A DNA stretch of 64,000 nucleotides from Verrucomicrobiaceae bacterium (lineage in GTDB: Bacteria > Verrucomicrobiota > Verrucomicrobiia > Verrucomicrobiales > Verrucomicrobiaceae): positions 1 to 64,000 of the forward strand of contig JAEUHJ010000161.1 of NCBI GenBank assembly GCA_016795375.1, given 5' to 3'. Below are positions 40,750-47,604 of the stretch, piece after piece. The first letter of the stretch is position 1. Each line of letters begins with the position of its first letter. The notes below the pieces were generated by a model. That model had not been told where the DNA came from, did not search any database, and saw nothing but the letters and a program-made list of their open reading frames with translations. The position numbers and the translations under genes are program-made.

Positions 40750-41481
40750 TCACGCCCGGCAGGGCTGCCGCCGTGTGCGGCGGATCACATGGGTGGTGGC
40801 GGCGGCCAGCAGCAGGAGGAGGGAGCCGGGTTCCGGTACGACCGCCGTTTGCAGGCTGAAGGCAGGCGGAGTCACGCCGAAGCCACCGTCGCCCTGTACG
40901 TTGTTCACGCCGCCGATGACGGCGGCGTCGGCATCGGCAAGCTGCCAGTCGTAGGAACCTCCGGTGTCCGCAGGATCGGGGATGACCCACGGGCTGCTGC
41001 TGTTGCCCGCAAAGTTGGAGTCTGTCACCAGCGCCCACTCGCTGCCCGGCACGATGACTTTTGAATTGTAGGCCCAGAGATAAACTTTTTCGCCCTGGGT
41101 GAAAACGTCCAGCGGATCAGCATCTGCGGAGCTGGAGTGGCCGAGCGAATCATGGGTCACGGTGGCCGTGAAAAACTGGTCCGGCACATTCCAGCCTTCC
41201 GGATCGCCGTCGTTAGGGTCCGACGGGGTGGGGTCAAAAGTGCGGTCAAAAACCTTCCAGTTGGCCTCCCACTGATCGACATTCTGGTAAGTGGGCATGA
41301 AGCCGCCAAAGGTGCCGACTTCGAAAGAGTAAGTGCCATTCAGAGGCTGGCCGTTGCTGTCGAAAAGCAAATCATTGAACACGCTGCTCCAGAAGACCGT
41401 GCTGGCGCCTGCGGAGCTGCACATGCAGACCAGCACCAGCCACAGGCTGCGCAGCGTGGTGGAAACGGGTGTGGCTTTCAT
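40750..41481 (-). CDS. PEP-CTERM sorting-domain protein
   Basis: A 243-residue exported protein: signal peptide about 1-26, then a Gly/Asp/Ser/Trp-rich beta-type region without recognised catalytic motif (GTYSFEVGTFGGFMP, YLWAYNSKVIVPG), and a C-terminal PEP-CTERM tail (VVPEPGSLLLLLAA, then an RRTRR basic end). Such proteins are exported and processed by exosortase, often as extracellular matrix components. An ECF sigma factor gene lies directly upstream on the same strand, and a sigma-70-like promoter lies in the gap. ATG 41481 is chosen for the signal peptide. Confidence 0.85.
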   Translation of the reverse strand: MKATPVSTTLRSLWLVLVCMCSSAGASTVFWSSVFNDLLFDSNGQPLNGTYSFEVGTFGGFMPTYQNVDQWEANWKVFDRTFDPTPSDPNDGDPEGWNVPDQFFTATVTHDSLGHSSSADADPLDVFTQGEKVYLWAYNSKVIVPGSEWALVTDSNFAGNSSSPWVIPDPADTGGSYDWQLADADAAVIGGVNNVQGDGGFGVTPPAFSLQTAVVPEPGSLLLLLAAATTHVIRRTRRQPCRA

Positions 41482-41550
41482 GCGGGATGCGGGTTTGGGG
41501 TGTTCTTGGCGTGCGAGTTGAGGGGGGTAAGGCACGATGAATCTATGTTA

Positions 41551-41578
41551 ATTATAATAAATATAACACAAACACCAA
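41551..41578 (-). promoter_or_regulatory. Sigma-70-like promoter of the PEP-CTERM gene
   Basis: On the minus strand TTGGTG (41578-41573), a 16-nt spacer, and TATAAT (41556-41551) lie about 70 bp upstream of the ATG at 41481. The surrounding 80 bp are A+T-rich. The -10 box is consensus, the -35 box weak. Confidence 0.5.
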
Positions 41579-41632
41579 AGAACAAGCAACATTTGAGGCA
41601 ACAAGCCATTGCCACGCTCCCAGAATGAAATC

Positions 41633-42229
41633 TCAGGCCAGGCGCGGTTTCACCAGCGTCTCCAGGCGGTTCACACCGCGACGGATGCGCGCCTTGATGG
41701 TGCCTAGCGGTTCGTGCAGACGCTCCGCCACCTCGGCCTGCGTGAGGCCGCTGAAGTAGGTGAGCTCGATGGCTTCACGCTGGTCGGCGGTGAGCCGGGA
41801 GACGGCGGTGTGCAGGATGGTGTCGCGTTCCTTGTCCTCCAGGTTTTCATGTCCGGAGCGCTCGAACTCGAACTGGTCCTTCTTGTTCTCGGTTTCAAAG
41901 TCGTCGTTGAGCTTCGAGCGGCGTTGCTTCGAACGGATGCGGTCGATGGCCCGGTTGCGCGCCAGTGTGGTCAGCCAGGTGAGCGGCTTGCCTTTGCGGG
42001 GTTCATAGAGATGGGCCTTGTTCCAGACCTGCACCAGCACCTCCTGCATCACGTCTTCAGTGTCGTGGTGGTCGTTGAGCACGTTTGAAATCGAGGCGAA
42101 AATAAGGCCGCTGTACTTCCGGTAGAAGGCTTGAAAGCTGACGGCGTCACGCTCGGCGACTCGCTTCAGCAGGCGAATGTCTTCCTCAAGATTCATGTCT
42201 GCTTCTGGAGTGTGTGAGGTCGCAGTCAT
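41633..42229 (-). CDS. ECF-type RNA polymerase sigma factor
   Basis: A 198-residue sigma factor. Region 2 includes FRKYSG-like YRKYSGLIF, DTEDVMQEVLVQVW (core binding) and LTTLARNRAIDRIR (-10 recognition). Region 4 is LTADQREAIELTYFSGLTQAEVAE with the helix-turn-helix PLGTIKARIRRG. No anti-sigma gene is adjacent, so control may be transcriptional or by a distant partner. The neighbouring PEP-CTERM gene downstream is a candidate target. ATG 42229 is used; ATG 42196 (MNLEEDI) is an alternative. Confidence 0.9.
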   Translation of the reverse strand: MTATSHTPEADMNLEEDIRLLKRVAERDAVSFQAFYRKYSGLIFASISNVLNDHHDTEDVMQEVLVQVWNKAHLYEPRKGKPLTWLTTLARNRAIDRIRSKQRRSKLNDDFETENKKDQFEFERSGHENLEDKERDTILHTAVSRLTADQREAIELTYFSGLTQAEVAERLHEPLGTIKARIRRGVNRLETLVKPRLA

Positions 42230-42301
42230 AATGGAGTTGAAATGCAAGTGGTAGGGCCACTTTTGCGACAAATGGCAATACGTCAAAGATTTGTTTACAA
42301 G

Positions 42302-42328
42302 TGTCTAATTTTAGTACGAAATGTCTAA
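42302..42328. promoter_or_regulatory. Direct repeat upstream of the sigma factor gene
   Basis: TGTCTAA occurs at 42302-42308 and again at 42322-42328, exactly 20 bp apart (two helical turns), about 75-100 bp upstream of the sigma factor start, in an A+T-rich gap. It could be a tandem operator or part of an autoregulated promoter. Unproven. Confidence 0.35.
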
Positions 42329-42427
42329 ATTATGACGCTGCCTGGGATGACATGAAGGAAACCCCGCCCTTGCTGGGAGACAGGCATGGAATGGGTATTC
42401 CCGCCAAAACACGGGTTCACAGGCTCG

Positions 42428-43807
42428 TTATCTGACCTCGTCCGTGCCGACGAGCTGACTCGGCACTTCCTTGACGGTGGCACGGTGTTTTTCGACCGCT
42501 GACTGAATGCGGGAGATGATGTCTGGATGCTGCCCGGCCACGTCGCGGCTCTCCGAGGGATCTTCCTCGATGTTGTAAAGCATCGGCACCGCGTGGACGG
42601 CCGGCTTTTCGGGGCCATAGGATGGCTGGGTGATGAAATGCGCCTTCCACGGGCCGACACGGGCGGCATAGAGGCGCTGGCCGCGGTAGTAGCAGAAGAC
42701 ACTGCGCTCCACCCTGCCGCTGCCGAACAACAAGGGGGAGATGTCCATCCCGTCGATGTCGCGGTCCTGTGGAGCAGCAGCCCCGCCCAGCTTCGCGAAG
42801 GTGACGAACAAATCCATCGTGCAGGCCACGTCACGGCAGACGGACGGCTTGATCCTCCCCGGCCACCACACGATGCCGGGTACGCGCATACCGCCCTCCC
42901 AGGTGCTGCCTTTGCCTTCGCGCAGCAGTCCGGCGCTGCCGCCGGTCTCCCCCATCGTCAGCCACGGGCCGTTGTCGCTGCTGAAAACCACCACCGTGTT
43001 CTCGGCCAGTCCGTTCTCGCGCAAGGTTTCAATCACGCGGCCCACACTCCAGTCGAGTTCCTCCACGACATCGCCATAAAGTCCGCGCGGGCTGCGGCCT
43101 TTGAAATTTTTCGACGCGAACAACGGCGTGTGCGGAAACGTGTGCGGGAAGTAGAGGAAGAACGGCTTCGACTTGTCCAGCGTGATGAATTTCACCGCCT
43201 CCTCGGTGTAGCGCCGTGTGAGCGTGGTCTGGTCCGCCGGCCGCTCGACCAGCTCCATGCCGCGATACAGCGGCGAATTCCAATACTCGGCCTTCTGGTC
43301 GGCCAGGGCGTTCGCCCTCTTCGGATTGCCTGGATTCGGGTTCATGTCGTTCGAGTGCGGCAGGCCGAACTGGAAGTCGAAACCGTGGTTCACCGGCTGA
43401 TGCCGGGGATCGTTCGCCCACACGCCGAGGTGCCATTTGCCGATGCACGCGGTGCGGTAGCCTTGCGCCTTCAGAAGTTCGGCCAGCGTCACCTCATCCT
43501 GCGGCAGCCCGCCGACCGAGTTGTTCCGCAGCACGCGAATCTGGTCGTGGCACATGCCGCTGCGGACCGGATAACGCCCCGTGAGCAGCGCGGCCCGGCT
43601 CGGCGTGCAGACCTCCGCCGCGGAATAGAACTGCGTGAAACGCATGCCCTCCGCCGCCATGCGGTCGAGGTTCGGCGTACGGATCGTCGGATGCCCGTAA
43701 CAGCCGAGATCGCCGTAACCGAGATCATCCGCGTAGATGATGACGATGTTTGGAACAGCGAGGAGTGACGTGCTGAGGGCAATGAGAAGAAGGAGGGCGC
43801 GCAACAT
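42428..43807 (-). CDS. Secreted sulfatase (arylsulfatase family)
   Basis: A 459-residue type I sulfatase with signal peptide (about 1-17). Metal-binding Asp residues are in IIYADDLGYGD (D27, D28), and the formylglycine site is C67-T-P-S-R71 followed by LLTGRYP. SSDNGPW and a conserved lysine later in the chain complete the active site. It needs a formylglycine-generating enzyme encoded elsewhere. In Verrucomicrobia such enzymes desulfate algal or mucin glycans. It stands alone, with no glycoside hydrolase beside it. Confidence 0.93.
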   Translation of the reverse strand: MLRALLLLIALSTSLLAVPNIVIIYADDLGYGDLGCYGHPTIRTPNLDRMAAEGMRFTQFYSAAEVCTPSRAALLTGRYPVRSGMCHDQIRVLRNNSVGGLPQDEVTLAELLKAQGYRTACIGKWHLGVWANDPRHQPVNHGFDFQFGLPHSNDMNPNPGNPKRANALADQKAEYWNSPLYRGMELVERPADQTTLTRRYTEEAVKFITLDKSKPFFLYFPHTFPHTPLFASKNFKGRSPRGLYGDVVEELDWSVGRVIETLRENGLAENTVVVFSSDNGPWLTMGETGGSAGLLREGKGSTWEGGMRVPGIVWWPGRIKPSVCRDVACTMDLFVTFAKLGGAAAPQDRDIDGMDISPLLFGSGRVERSVFCYYRGQRLYAARVGPWKAHFITQPSYGPEKPAVHAVPMLYNIEEDPSESRDVAGQHPDIISRIQSAVEKHRATVKEVPSQLVGTDEVR

Positions 43808-43856: not shown

Positions 43857-45038
43857 TCAAAACCGCCACGTCATCTGCGTCGCCAGCAGATGTCCGGCAT
43901 TTTCAGCGGGGCTGTTTTCATGAGCGTAGCTGTATTGCAGCTTGAGCTGCAGGCTGCGGCTGAGGCGATAACCGACGGCGGCGTCGATGCGCAGGATGCG
44001 CGACTCCCATGTGGCGTTGCCGCCCGCTCCATCCGGCACGGTGTCAAAAAACTGCTGGTTCCAGCGCAGCGCGGCGAAGAGGCTTTCGGTGATCTTGTAC
44101 TTCGCCTCGATGAAATAGGAGAGCGAATCGGCGTTGCCGACGTTCGGCACCTCGAAGCGCGAGAGGATGACCTCGCTCCACAGTTGCAGATGGCCGTGCG
44201 CGTAGCTGGCGTCGAAGCCAAGCGTGCTCTGCTGGTAGTCATCGCGCTCCGAGCCTGCGGGCAGCCCCGGTGTCGGCTCTCCGATCATGTAAGCGCCCGT
44301 GCTGCCGCTGATGCCGAGATTCCACGCGGCGTCAGGGCGGAAACCGAGGCGTCCGCTATAGGTCGGTGCGGAGAATCCGACTTCGTCGGCACGCCAGGCG
44401 CTGGGACGTGATGACAGTCCCGCGTTCTTGACCTCGAAGGCATAATCAAACCGTTCCACGCGGCCGAAGATCGACGCCCCGGTGGCATACGACGGCCCCC
44501 AGATCACCGGCAGCCATGTCCCTTTCGTGTCCGTGCGGCCGCGCCGCGCGAGAAAGCCGCCCGCCCCCGCCGGCGCGGTGCGATCTGTCATGATGAGCAC
44601 GTTTTCATACGCCAGCGGAGCGGTGATGAATGGATTGTCCCACGCGAGATGACGCTGCACCCAGTTGCCGAACACGGTGGCGAATTTTCCCGCCTGCACG
44701 TTGATCACCGGTGTGTCGAACGGCGTCCAGCGAAGGAGATATTCGTCCAGCCGGCCTTTGCCGCCCGCGTTCAATCCGGGATCGAACCCGCGGTCGAATC
44801 GTGCCTGTGCGAACGCATACCAGTGGCTGCCGAGATGCACATCCGCGAAGAGCGACGCACGTGGATTGAAAAACAGTTCGTCATCGGAAAACAGCAGCGC
44901 GGGCGGCGCACCGTCGGACAGGTAGCTCTCCAGATCGACACGACCGCTCAAACTCGCATGCACCGGCCAGCCGCGCGGCAGCAGTTCGACGGCCAGCGCC
45001 GGAGCGGCGAGCAGGAGCAGGGCAAAGCAGCGTTTCAT
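43857..45038 (-). CDS. Porin-like outer membrane beta-barrel protein
   Basis: A 393-residue exported protein: signal peptide (MKRCFALLLLAAPALA), then alternating beta-strand pattern throughout (YAFAQARFDRG, AWNLGISGSTGAYM, LQLKLQYSYAH) and a terminal aromatic residue (MTWRF), as recognised by the BAM machinery. No close family is recognised; it may be a specific porin. It ends the cupredoxin-cyclase-porin operon, starting 19 bp after the cyclase gene. ATG 45038 is chosen for the signal peptide. Confidence 0.7.
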   Translation of the reverse strand: MKRCFALLLLAAPALAVELLPRGWPVHASLSGRVDLESYLSDGAPPALLFSDDELFFNPRASLFADVHLGSHWYAFAQARFDRGFDPGLNAGGKGRLDEYLLRWTPFDTPVINVQAGKFATVFGNWVQRHLAWDNPFITAPLAYENVLIMTDRTAPAGAGGFLARRGRTDTKGTWLPVIWGPSYATGASIFGRVERFDYAFEVKNAGLSSRPSAWRADEVGFSAPTYSGRLGFRPDAAWNLGISGSTGAYMIGEPTPGLPAGSERDDYQQSTLGFDASYAHGHLQLWSEVILSRFEVPNVGNADSLSYFIEAKYKITESLFAALRWNQQFFDTVPDGAGGNATWESRILRIDAAVGYRLSRSLQLKLQYSYAHENSPAENAGHLLATQMTWRF

Positions 45039-45057
45039 CTGATAAAAAGCATTGGCA

Positions 45058-46821
45058 TCATGCAACGGAGCCGGTCCCTTCGGCAAGACTCAAACGAAAC
45101 GCTGGCACCGGCTGGCTGAAACCCTTCAATGGCATCGGTTCCACCGGCTGCGCCTCGAAGGCACCGTTCAAAGCCGCGTGCGTGGCCTCGTCCATCATCA
45201 ATTCGCCGCGCCCGGCCTTGGAGCACAGACGCGAGGCCAGGTTCACGCGTTCGCCGAGCACGGTGTAGTTCAGACGGTCATCGGAACCCATGCAGCCGGC
45301 CACCATCTCGCCCGTGGCGACGCCGATGCCCATTTCAATGCGACGCGACGTCGTTTCGTTCAGCCTGCGCCGCACCGCGAGCATCTCCAGCGCGCAATCG
45401 ACCGCCAGCCGCGTGTCATCGCCATAGCTTTTCGGCGCGCCGAAAATCGCCATGATCAGATCGCCCACGAACTTGTCCACCACGCCGTGATGCGCGTGAA
45501 CGACGCGCGTCATGGCCGTCATGTGCTCGTTCATCATCGTGATGACCTCCTGCGGCGGCATGCCTTCGGTGAGTGCGGTGAAACCACGGATGTCGCAGAA
45601 CAGCACGCTCGCGCGCCGCACCTCGCCGCCGAGCGCCACGCGGCCATGCACCAGTGCGTCCGCCACCTGCGGATCGCTCACCTGCGCCAGCAGCAGCTTG
45701 TAGCGCTCCTTTTGCGCGAGATCGGCGGCCATCTCGTTGAAGGAGGATGCCAGGGCGCTGAATTCATCGCGGCCACGCACCTGCACGCGCACGGCGTAAT
45801 CACCCTCCGAGATGCGTCGTGTTCCGGCGGCCAGCGCTTCGATCGGACGGCTGAAGCCATGCGAAAGATAAAGCGTCAGCGCCAGTCCACCGAGCAACGC
45901 CACCACGCCGAATCCAAGAATGCGCATGCGAAGCTGCTGCTGCTCGCGCACCGCCTCCGCCATCGAATACAGGCCCACCTGCGCCGCCGGTGGAAACAAC
46001 GACCCCGGATTCAACACGCGATGAAACAGCAGATGCGGCACACTGGCGACGCGGATCGTCTCCGCGCTCGTGCCGCTGGCGGTGTTTTTGATCTCACTGG
46101 CCACTCGTTTTGCCAGCATCTCATGCAGCGTCGCCGGAATCGTCTGTGAATGGATGCTGCCATCCAGCCAGATGCCGCTGAGCAACGCCTGGCGGCTGGA
46201 CTCGTGCATCGCACGCTCGCCGTGGTCGCTGAGAGGAAAAGCCATCACCAGCGCGCCGAGCACGTCGTCGGTGGCCTGGTTCACCAGCGGTGTCACGATG
46301 CACTCGCCCAGCTTTCCACCGCTGAGCGTGAGGTAGCCGATCTCCTGCCGCCGTTCGCGGCCCTCACTCATGCGTTTGACCAGCCGCTCCAGCAGGCTGT
46401 CACGGCCGTCGCCCGTGCCGTGCGGCAGGAAATAGGGCCGTGATTTTCCCGGCACGAGAGCACGGCCCGTCGGATCGATCACCGTGATGGACGGGTTGTC
46501 CGCCGCCTCCGTCAGCAGCGCGATCTCCGTGTCCAGATTGTCGTAAAAGAGGTCGGGGTCGTTCTCCATGAGCGCCTCCTCGAGCGCGGAGATGATGCGC
46601 ACGGACTCCGACACATTTTTGCAACGTTTTGCGATCTCGCCGAGCAGTTGCACGCGGCGCTCGCTGAAAAAGGACAGTTGCAGACGGAACTGGTCCTCGA
46701 ACTGTCGCTGATACGCCGCCTGCACACGCTGCTGTGTCACATAGAGCGTCGCGCCCGTCACGCCGGCCACGGTCAGCGACATCGCCAGAATCAGCTTCGT
46801 GCGGAAGGAGAACGCGGGCAT
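45058..46821 (-). CDS. Transmembrane class III adenylate/guanylate cyclase with HAMP domain
   Basis: A 587-residue sensor cyclase. TM1 (about 8-26), a periplasmic sensor region of about 270 residues, TM2 (about 297-316), HAMP (about 317-370), and a class III catalytic domain from about 400. The domain has metal Asp residues in VLFCDIRGFT and KFVGDLIMAIFG, plus NYTVLGERVNLASRL with the transition-state Asn and Arg. The Lys in DKFVGD favours ATP as substrate. The periplasmic part looks Cache-like, as in double-Cache sensors. Signal unknown; the cupredoxin encoded 14 bp upstream is a candidate partner. Confidence 0.88.
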   Translation of the reverse strand: MPAFSFRTKLILAMSLTVAGVTGATLYVTQQRVQAAYQRQFEDQFRLQLSFFSERRVQLLGEIAKRCKNVSESVRIISALEEALMENDPDLFYDNLDTEIALLTEAADNPSITVIDPTGRALVPGKSRPYFLPHGTGDGRDSLLERLVKRMSEGRERRQEIGYLTLSGGKLGECIVTPLVNQATDDVLGALVMAFPLSDHGERAMHESSRQALLSGIWLDGSIHSQTIPATLHEMLAKRVASEIKNTASGTSAETIRVASVPHLLFHRVLNPGSLFPPAAQVGLYSMAEAVREQQQLRMRILGFGVVALLGGLALTLYLSHGFSRPIEALAAGTRRISEGDYAVRVQVRGRDEFSALASSFNEMAADLAQKERYKLLLAQVSDPQVADALVHGRVALGGEVRRASVLFCDIRGFTALTEGMPPQEVITMMNEHMTAMTRVVHAHHGVVDKFVGDLIMAIFGAPKSYGDDTRLAVDCALEMLAVRRRLNETTSRRIEMGIGVATGEMVAGCMGSDDRLNYTVLGERVNLASRLCSKAGRGELMMDEATHAALNGAFEAQPVEPMPLKGFSQPVPAFRLSLAEGTGSVA

Positions 46822-46835
46822 CGCGAAAAGTCGGT

Positions 46836-47492
46836 TCAGCGGCTGCTGGCGGTGCGGAGGCCGGAAAAATCCACGCGCAGCGTCTTCCCCACCGTCACCG
46901 TCACCTCCTGCATGATCGTGGTTTTCTCGCTCAGCCAGGCATTGAGCTGGAACGTGCCCGCGGGCACGCCAGCGAGCCGGTAACGGCCCTCCGCGTCCGT
47001 GGTGGCAAAGTGCGGCGTGTCCAGCACGAGGATCACGCCGCGCATGTGCTGGTGGATCTCGCAGTAAAGACGCACCTCGCCCGCCTTGTCGAGGATCAGC
47101 GCGGGCGGCGTCTCGTTCTTGCGGAAGCGGCCCAGGTCGAAGCGCTTCGCCTTCGAGTAGGAGAAAACGTTGTGATAATCGCTGTCGTCATTCGGAAAAA
47201 TCACCTGCGTGCCCGTCTGCACTGCCAGCACGCCCGGCGCGAATTGATAGCCGCTCTGCATCATCACCACCGGCTTCGCGGGCGGCGTTTTTTTCACACC
47301 CGGCACTTCGAGATAGACCACGGCCAGTTGTTTCGGCGACTCGGCCACCCGGCCCGCATTCAGCCCGTAATGTGAGGTTGGTGCCGGCCCCATCGGCCTG
47401 CCGGTCAGCGTCACGGTGCCTTCGACGACGCCCTGCGCGCAAGCGCCGCTCGTGACTGCCAGCAACAGGGCAAGGATGAAAAATCGGGTCAT
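46836..47492 (-). CDS. Periplasmic cupredoxin-like protein with carboxypeptidase-regulatory-like domain
   Basis: A 218-residue exported protein (signal peptide about 1-19). The central plastocyanin-like domain has probable type 1 copper ligands H107 (DYHNVF), C144, H147 and M150 (YCEIHQHM). The C-terminal part (DTPHFATTDAEGRYRLAGVPAG) is a carboxypeptidase-regulatory-like beta sandwich. Similar proteins are annotated as methylamine utilisation proteins. It is the first gene of the operon with the cyclase and the porin, suggesting a copper- or redox-dependent signal passed to the cyclase; this is inference. Confidence 0.82.
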   Translation of the reverse strand: MTRFFILALLLAVTSGACAQGVVEGTVTLTGRPMGPAPTSHYGLNAGRVAESPKQLAVVYLEVPGVKKTPPAKPVVMMQSGYQFAPGVLAVQTGTQVIFPNDDSDYHNVFSYSKAKRFDLGRFRKNETPPALILDKAGEVRLYCEIHQHMRGVILVLDTPHFATTDAEGRYRLAGVPAGTFQLNAWLSEKTTIMQEVTVTVGKTLRVDFSGLRTASSR

Positions 47493-47604
47493 GAGGCGGC
47501 CAGACTAACAGGCCGCGCCGCCTGCGGCCAGAGCGTTTTTGCCACCCCGCCTTCCCCCTTGCGCCCAGGCCGAAAATGCCGACTCTACGCGCCCTTTTTC
47601 CGCC

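Follow-up and report, generated by a model that had tools for sequence, protein, structure and literature searches.

What brings a copper protein, a membrane-bound nucleotide cyclase and a porin together in one set of genes? The question is raised by a 64,000-nucleotide stretch of a Verrucomicrobiaceae genome (contig JAEUHJ010000161.1, positions 1 to 64,000; hereafter the window), in which the list of open reading frames (ORFs) places on the minus strand, from 47492 to 43857, a cupredoxin gene (gene 1), a gene for a class III cyclase with double Cache (dCache) and HAMP domains (gene 2), and a gene for a porin-like barrel (gene 3). The ORF coordinates bear out the tight three-gene arrangement first noted here, with spacings of 14 bp (46822–46835) and 19 bp (45039–45057). 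All three reading frames are intact, which rules out a broken operon. We propose, at somewhat less than even odds, that the genes form a three-part, envelope-spanning sensory operon with a type 1 copper protein as its periplasmic subunit. Each part has a known fold; the novelty lies in how the parts are combined and conserved and in their exchangeable outputs, and no title or abstract in the literature searched describes a cupredoxin-sensor-porin unit.

Conserved linkage of the three parts

A scan of GTDB genomes provided a first set of 18 loci, and the linkage is clearly seen among them. The cupredoxin is accompanied by a class III cyclase in 14, with the cyclase directly after it in each case, and by a histidine kinase in three, the last locus being cut at a contig end; the porin is present in 13 of the 18. 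Among 387 genomes from the phylum, the profile of the cupredoxin finds 45 places in 35 genomes and the gene 3 porin profile 18 places in 16 genomes. A cupredoxin adjoins 16 of these 18 porin places; of the remaining pair, one is an isolated ORF of 307 residues and the other a fragment containing a stop codon.

A broader collection of 114 distinct cupredoxins was drawn from the phylum of the window, from a second phylum reached through a record titled Acidobacteria, and from plasmids of Burkholderiales, Sphingomonadales and Rhizobiales. For the Acidobacteria-type matches 40 stretches were taken (the upper part of the list and 20 picked further down); one row (locus L040) was dropped as more than 97% identical to another, and duplicate source-genome stretches and loci taken twice were excluded. 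The nearest relatives of the window cupredoxin are Verrucomicrobiota records. In the genome stretches, a signalling gene lies within 300 bp and on the same strand for 51 of 86 cupredoxin genes, as compared to 8 of 686 other called ORFs, counts that are conditional on the presence of a cupredoxin because the stretches were found by a cupredoxin search. A Fisher test on these counts takes no account of relatedness, and its p-value is not treated here as a probability. The original prediction had named random association in relatives as grounds for abandoning a functional link; this synteny, together with that of the porin, is not of that kind. Neighbours were called with phmmer against a few representative domains and with a greedy ORF caller, so that 'no sensor' and 'no barrel' counts are lower bounds.

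When the flanking ORFs of 106 loci are clustered, the dominant recurrent families are the cupredoxin (103 loci), signalling proteins (94 loci) and several families of barrels; less widespread are a MacB/FtsX-type permease (10 loci, nearly all in one group) and, at some loci, cytochrome genes. A barrel of a listed family is located within 4 kb of 67 of the 87 signalling-linked cupredoxins, with barrels outside the representative families judged from size and a C-terminal Phe alone. One group has an upstream barrel that shares homology with the porin in the window (99.0%, E 2.4e-18), and other groups have different barrels (A7, DUF3034, Alginate_exp). A7, the barrel found upstream in the second cyclase group, scores 19.9% against the window porin, and is either of a different family or too distant. 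The similar Proteobacterial triads mentioned in the original prediction also have a real counterpart, in the order DUF3034, truncated haemoglobin (in some cases), cupredoxin and GGDEF/EAL, and in Comamonas a DUF4394 gene takes the place of DUF3034.

Exchange of the signalling output

The gene beside the cupredoxin varies in type. Among the 114 cupredoxins the neighbour is a histidine kinase in 46 (of which 11, at up to 2.5 kb, may include response-regulator-level matches that the 300-bp adjacency count excludes), a cyclase in 32 including the window, a GGDEF-EAL protein in seven, a Ser/Thr kinase in two, and a cytochrome oxidase in four; in 23 none was recognised, and one of these (L106) adjoins an HD-GYP protein. 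Regulators at the kinase loci are of the OmpR type (L043) or the NtrC/sigma-54 type (L098). On the cupredoxin tree the output labels need at least 18 changes (histidine kinase 8, cyclase 7) compared with 57.9 for shuffled labels, and the outputs have thus been swapped several times yet remain clustered.

A profile of the window sensor matches, over its full length, those of the GGDEF-EAL and second-cyclase groups (hhalign 99.7%, E 7.8e-26) and those of the hybrid kinases apart from the HAMP part (96.5%, E 8.2e-10), in comparisons made without an unrelated dCache family as negative control; judged by these profiles, the sensor halves are homologous across output types. The constant part of the module is the input half (cupredoxin and dCache) with the barrel, and the output is interchangeable. 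Exchange of output domains in itself provides genetic evidence as to which parts make up the input. The original prediction also described a unit that raises cyclic nucleotide, and this holds to the extent that the cyclase keeps its catalytic and ATP-type residues; as a general description it does not, since the cyclase is only one of several outputs, and cyclic AMP (cAMP) is not a defining part of the module.

The products of the three genes

Gene 1 is, by profile homology, an amicyanin-like type 1 copper cupredoxin with predicted copper binding. The single-sequence cupredoxin match is weak (0.0014, under the Pfam cut-off), and the family profile matches amicyanin (E 1.5e-4) with all four ligands in register, so that the alignment agrees with the ligands first read from the sequence (H107, C144, H147 and M150). 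Loss of these ligands among homologues, another outcome considered damaging at the outset, is not observed: the two His, the Cys and the Met are intact in all 114 related cupredoxins, and the C-x2-H-x2-M spacing is that of amicyanin. The C-terminal third is a CarboxypepD_reg domain by single-sequence Pfam search (Table 1). The label 'methylamine utilization protein' that relatives carry is a name only; a role in methylamine metabolism was rejected, with no mau genes among the annotated neighbours of the Proteobacterial relatives or the scanned neighbours in the window.

Gene 2 has two transmembrane segments by hydropathy (residues ~10–28 and ~297–320), from which a periplasmic domain is predicted; with its Pfam matches to Guanylate_cyc (E 3.1e-30) and HAMP (Table 1) it is the sensor class III cyclase with a periplasmic domain that had been anticipated. 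AlphaFold2 models the periplasmic part as a double Cache with moderate confidence (predicted local distance difference test, pLDDT, 75.8), and the model matches crystal structures of dCache receptors in Foldseek and VIA-align comparisons (Z 10–13, root-mean-square deviation ~3.5–5 over ~190–250 residues). The modelled order, a double Cache fold between two transmembrane segments followed by HAMP, is that of the dCache-HAMP layout. Pfam dCache_3 is found weakly in three of 15 members of the sensor family, and has no match in the source genome despite the predicted dCache fold of gene 2.

The catalytic residues are well conserved among 34 cyclase sequences: both metal Asp residues in all 34, the Asn and Arg in 33 (one sequence is truncated by its contig), the Lys in 31 and the Thr in 28, with Ser in five others. 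The catalytic domain matches Pseudomonas aeruginosa CyaB (E 3.8e-29); the two proteins align at the motifs DKFVGD and YT..G..VNLASRL, and K450, T520 and both metal Asp residues are in register. We take K450 and T520 to be the ATP-type pair, D410 and D454 to bind metal, and N527 and R531 to serve in the transition state. From its residues gene 2 thus appears to keep the catalytic and ATP-type features of a cyclase, and its product would be cAMP. Six cyclic-nucleotide-binding proteins are encoded in the source genome and are possible receptors.

Gene 3 has no single-sequence Pfam match over the cut-off (best 0.011), and a profile of 13 members finds no match in the PDB; its relatives match OMP_b-brl, Porin_O_P and BBP2 weakly (best 1.1e-5 to 9.3e-5). 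The AlphaFold model has 16 long strands (pLDDT 73.1, moderate) and resembles OmpC, OmpU, OprP and OprO, with E values of ~1e-14 to 1e-13 for the first three. The C-terminal residue, F393, is kept in 13 of 13 family members. With a signal peptide-like N-terminus, ~16 strands in the model and the C-terminal Phe, gene 3 is predicted to be a porin of the 16-strand type, and the model and the Pfam matches of its relatives confirm that an outer-membrane barrel is the third gene. In an NCBIfam scan the three operon genes gave nothing beyond HAMP-level or trivial matches.

Putative docking residues

Two sets of conserved residues could form an interface between the products of genes 1 and 2. The loop HNVFSYSKxKRFDLGRY starts at the first His ligand of the cupredoxin, and at least five of six positions are kept in 87 of 87 signalling-linked cupredoxins, 16 of the 23 that lack a recognised partner, and none of the four linked to an oxidase. 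In window-type sensors beside a cupredoxin, cyclases and kinases alike, R75 is present in 28/28, E81 in 26/28, Y93 in 28/28 and E99 in 27/28; the corresponding counts for the six sister cyclases that stand alone, including one from the source genome, are 0/6, 0/6, 1/6 and 1/6. These four residues sit in membrane-distal helices just ahead of the first dCache strand in the AlphaFold2 model. Because the cupredoxin loop is basic and acidic residues are found on the dCache, this pattern suggests that the loop may dock there.

Comparison with known systems

We read the module as working like the NspS-MbaA polyamine sensor of Vibrio cholerae, with the cupredoxin as the accessory protein. In that system (PMC8079147), NspS is periplasmic, is encoded immediately upstream of MbaA, and interacts with the periplasmic domain of MbaA; MbaA is a sensor in the inner membrane, and the synthesis or breakdown of a second messenger is the task of its cytoplasmic part. 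The gene anatomy of the window operon is alike. However, NspS is a solute-binding protein and the window partner is a cupredoxin with copper ligands, and for this reason we do not regard the module as a member of the NspS-MbaA type. The window module further adds a porin-like barrel, and its outputs include class III cyclase, histidine kinase, GGDEF-EAL and Ser/Thr kinase.

The copper ligands of amicyanin, as listed in one report (PMC12723479), are His53, Cys92, His95 and Met98, with the same C-x2-H-x2-M spacing as the gene 1 cupredoxin; gene 1 differs in its C-terminal CarboxypepD_reg-like fusion, its conserved FSxSKxKRFDLGRY loop and its signalling gene neighbour. AcoP is a cytochrome-oxidase-associated cupredoxin described (PMC4059628) as a protein partner that maintains the activity of another protein. 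The window cupredoxin family also has COX1-linked members, whereas AcoP has an oxidase partner, a different ligand spacing (H85, C159, H166, M171) and no sensor. The similarity to CyaB of P. aeruginosa lies in the class III catalytic domain and its aligned motifs, and the input domain is different. CyaB is not known to have a cupredoxin partner.

Proposed working and alternatives

In the working that we propose for the sensory operon, the porin would admit a small solute or ion to the periplasm, where the amicyanin-like cupredoxin would change state, most likely between Cu(II) and Cu(I) and otherwise in copper occupancy. The cupredoxin would then dock by its HNVFSYSKxKRFDLGR loop on the membrane-distal dCache helices at R75, E81, Y93 and E99, and a relay through HAMP would switch the cyclase and change the level of cAMP. 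Redox state is favoured over copper level as the probable signal, because related cupredoxins adjoin cytochrome oxidase and cytochrome genes and no copper-transport gene is present among the annotated recurrent families.

Several observations weigh against a sensory operon of this kind. A second dCache-cyclase in the source genome (L026:6716-8686, contig C5) is 46% identical to gene 2 and adjoins neither a cupredoxin nor a porin, and it has counterparts in five other genomes; a dCache of this kind can therefore work without a copper protein. Its flanking genes are presumably uvrC-like and superoxide-dismutase-like. Three loci (L052–L054) have the cupredoxin and the porin and no sensor, and the pair therefore has some function of its own, and three others (L014, L016 and L018) have enough flanking sequence yet no porin match. 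The 23 of 114 cupredoxins without a recognised sensor, and the four more that adjoin cytochrome oxidase, are in the same direction. Finally, the loop and docking motifs were picked post hoc, after inspection of the sequences, and the solitary sensors may differ simply because they are a separate clade.

According to the main rival reading, the dCache sensor has its own small ligand, as is usual for dCache domains, and controls the operon, such that the cupredoxin and porin are regulated products for uptake or electron transfer with no physical part in sensing. The solitary sister cyclases, the cupredoxin-porin pairs without a sensor, the location of other family cupredoxins in respiratory clusters, and the fact that the best structural matches of the dCache are mostly small-ligand receptors all speak for it, but a cyclase, GGDEF-EAL protein or Ser/Thr kinase has no obvious route to regulating its own operon alone, the linkage survives exchange of the output, and the triad-specific invariant dCache residues and the cupredoxin loop suggest a shared interface; we consider this rival unlikely. 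It is less likely still that the operon reads copper supply rather than redox, with the porin admitting copper and only the copper-loaded cupredoxin engaging the sensor. Four copper ligands invariant in 114 of 114 proteins and a porin dedicated to the operon would fit such a role, although no copper transporter, efflux protein or regulator is found among the annotated recurrent neighbour families (some families are unannotated), and type 1 copper sites are generally tuned for electron transfer. A sensor of nitric oxide or oxygen, whose receptor would be either the copper site or an accompanying haemoglobin, is brought to mind by the group 1 truncated haemoglobin gene located between barrel and cupredoxin in Caballeronia and beside the barrel in Novosphingobium; this haemoglobin cluster is limited to plasmid loci among the flanking ORFs, with none beside the window operon, and we regard the idea as very improbable. 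Chance neighbourhood with no functional tie is contradicted by the synteny counts (51/86 as compared to 8/686, and 16/18 porin places), and we give it almost no credence.

Features of the locus and related loci

The coordinates of the operon and its parts are given in Table 1. Consensus sigma-70 sites are absent from the upstream intergenic region, consensus promoters or terminators for the operon are no more numerous than in shuffled sequence, and a search for an inverted-repeat operator upstream of the operon found only arms of 6–7 nt. On the downstream side and the same strand (40750–43807) the window encodes a sulfatase, an extracytoplasmic function (ECF)-type sigma factor, and a protein with a PEP-CTERM-like tail, the tail being recognised by eye.

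Table 1. Positions of the operon, its genes and their domains in the window.
Feature	Position	Strand	Evidence or remark
Intergenic region to divergent upstream gene	47493..47604	.	presumed operon promoter
Gene 1: secreted amicyanin-like cupredoxin fused to CarboxypepD_reg-like (Ig-type) domain, 218 aa (predicted)	46836..47492	-	ORF, profiles, hydrophobic N-terminus
Cupredoxin domain, residues ~62-156; ligands H107, C144, H147, M150	47025..47309	-	profile and alignment
Loop around first His ligand, residues 105-123, DYHNVFSYSKAKRFDLGRF; candidate docking surface	47124..47180	-	conservation
CarboxypepD_reg-like domain, residues 158-209	46866..47021	-	E 3.4e-9
Gene 2: dCache-HAMP-class III cyclase, 587 aa	45058..46821	-	ORF, Pfam, AlphaFold2, structure matches, CyaB alignment
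Periplasmic double Cache domain, residues ~29-296 (predicted)	45934..46737	-	AlphaFold2 model; matched to dCache ligand-binding domains by Foldseek and VIA-align
Helical segment with R75, E81, Y93, E99	46525..46599	-	(near-)invariant where the sensor adjoins a cupredoxin; not so in solitary paralogues
HAMP domain, residues 319-368	45718..45867	-	E 3.2e-14
Class III cyclase domain, residues 403-567; D410, K450, D454, T520, N527, R531	45121..45615	-	Guanylate_cyc, residue conservation
Gene 3: outer-membrane porin-like barrel (predicted), 393 aa, signal peptide-like N-terminus, C-terminal Phe	43857..45038	-	ORF (ATG at 45038, end at 43857), AlphaFold, structure matches, relatives

A number of related loci have features of their own. 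The Ser/Thr kinase loci (L077:3864-8662 and L078:5647-8677) encode a cupredoxin and then a CHASE4/dCache_3-HAMP receptor whose cytoplasmic part is a eukaryote-like Ser/Thr kinase, an unusual layout for bacteria, and in L077 an Alginate_exp-type barrel precedes the cupredoxin. The permease near the second cyclase group is a MacB/FtsX-type ATP-binding cassette protein of ~850 aa, located in the flanks of L062–L076 (10 loci). On Caballeronia and Novosphingobium plasmids (L028:4045-8354, L030 and L032) the paired cupredoxin and GGDEF-EAL genes are preceded or flanked by genes for a DUF3034 protein and for a truncated haemoglobin of group 1; the DUF3034 protein, whose last residue is Phe, is a possible barrel, and DUF3034 has no match in the source genome or 14 control genomes. 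A 14-kb stretch (L107:5848-13821) contains three cupredoxin genes of the family, with kinases and regulators on both strands, and L131:5463-11725, which lacks a cupredoxin but has a sensor kinase of the window type and part of a porin, resembles a degenerate copy of the module. A distant member of the cupredoxin family adjoins metallophosphoesterase, SCO, hemA and groEL genes in L033 (Sinorhizobium meliloti pSymA) and L035, and genes for a cbb3-type oxidase are close by. The record titles of L008, L009 and L014 (Akkermansia muciniphila/Klebsiella pneumoniae) look wrong, and we note that their cupredoxins group with Verrucomicrobiota environmental genomes.

Implications

It is possible, and we put it forward tentatively, that a blue-copper electron carrier became a reusable signalling subunit, with one input unit of porin-like barrel, cupredoxin and dCache plugged into many outputs across phyla: class III cyclase, histidine kinase with OmpR- or NtrC-type regulators, cyclic di-GMP enzymes, and eukaryote-like Ser/Thr kinase. 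Such a unit would convey the redox state of the cell surface, or its loading with copper, by way of a basic cupredoxin loop docked on an acidic dCache tip. If so, the redox or copper state of the periplasm would be read by a dedicated copper protein acting as signalling partner, a mode that we did not find described in the literature searched. It would also provide a testable function for many proteins labelled 'methylamine utilization protein' or 'carboxypeptidase regulatory-like', and for orphan dCache sensors in Verrucomicrobiota, Acidobacteria and Proteobacteria.

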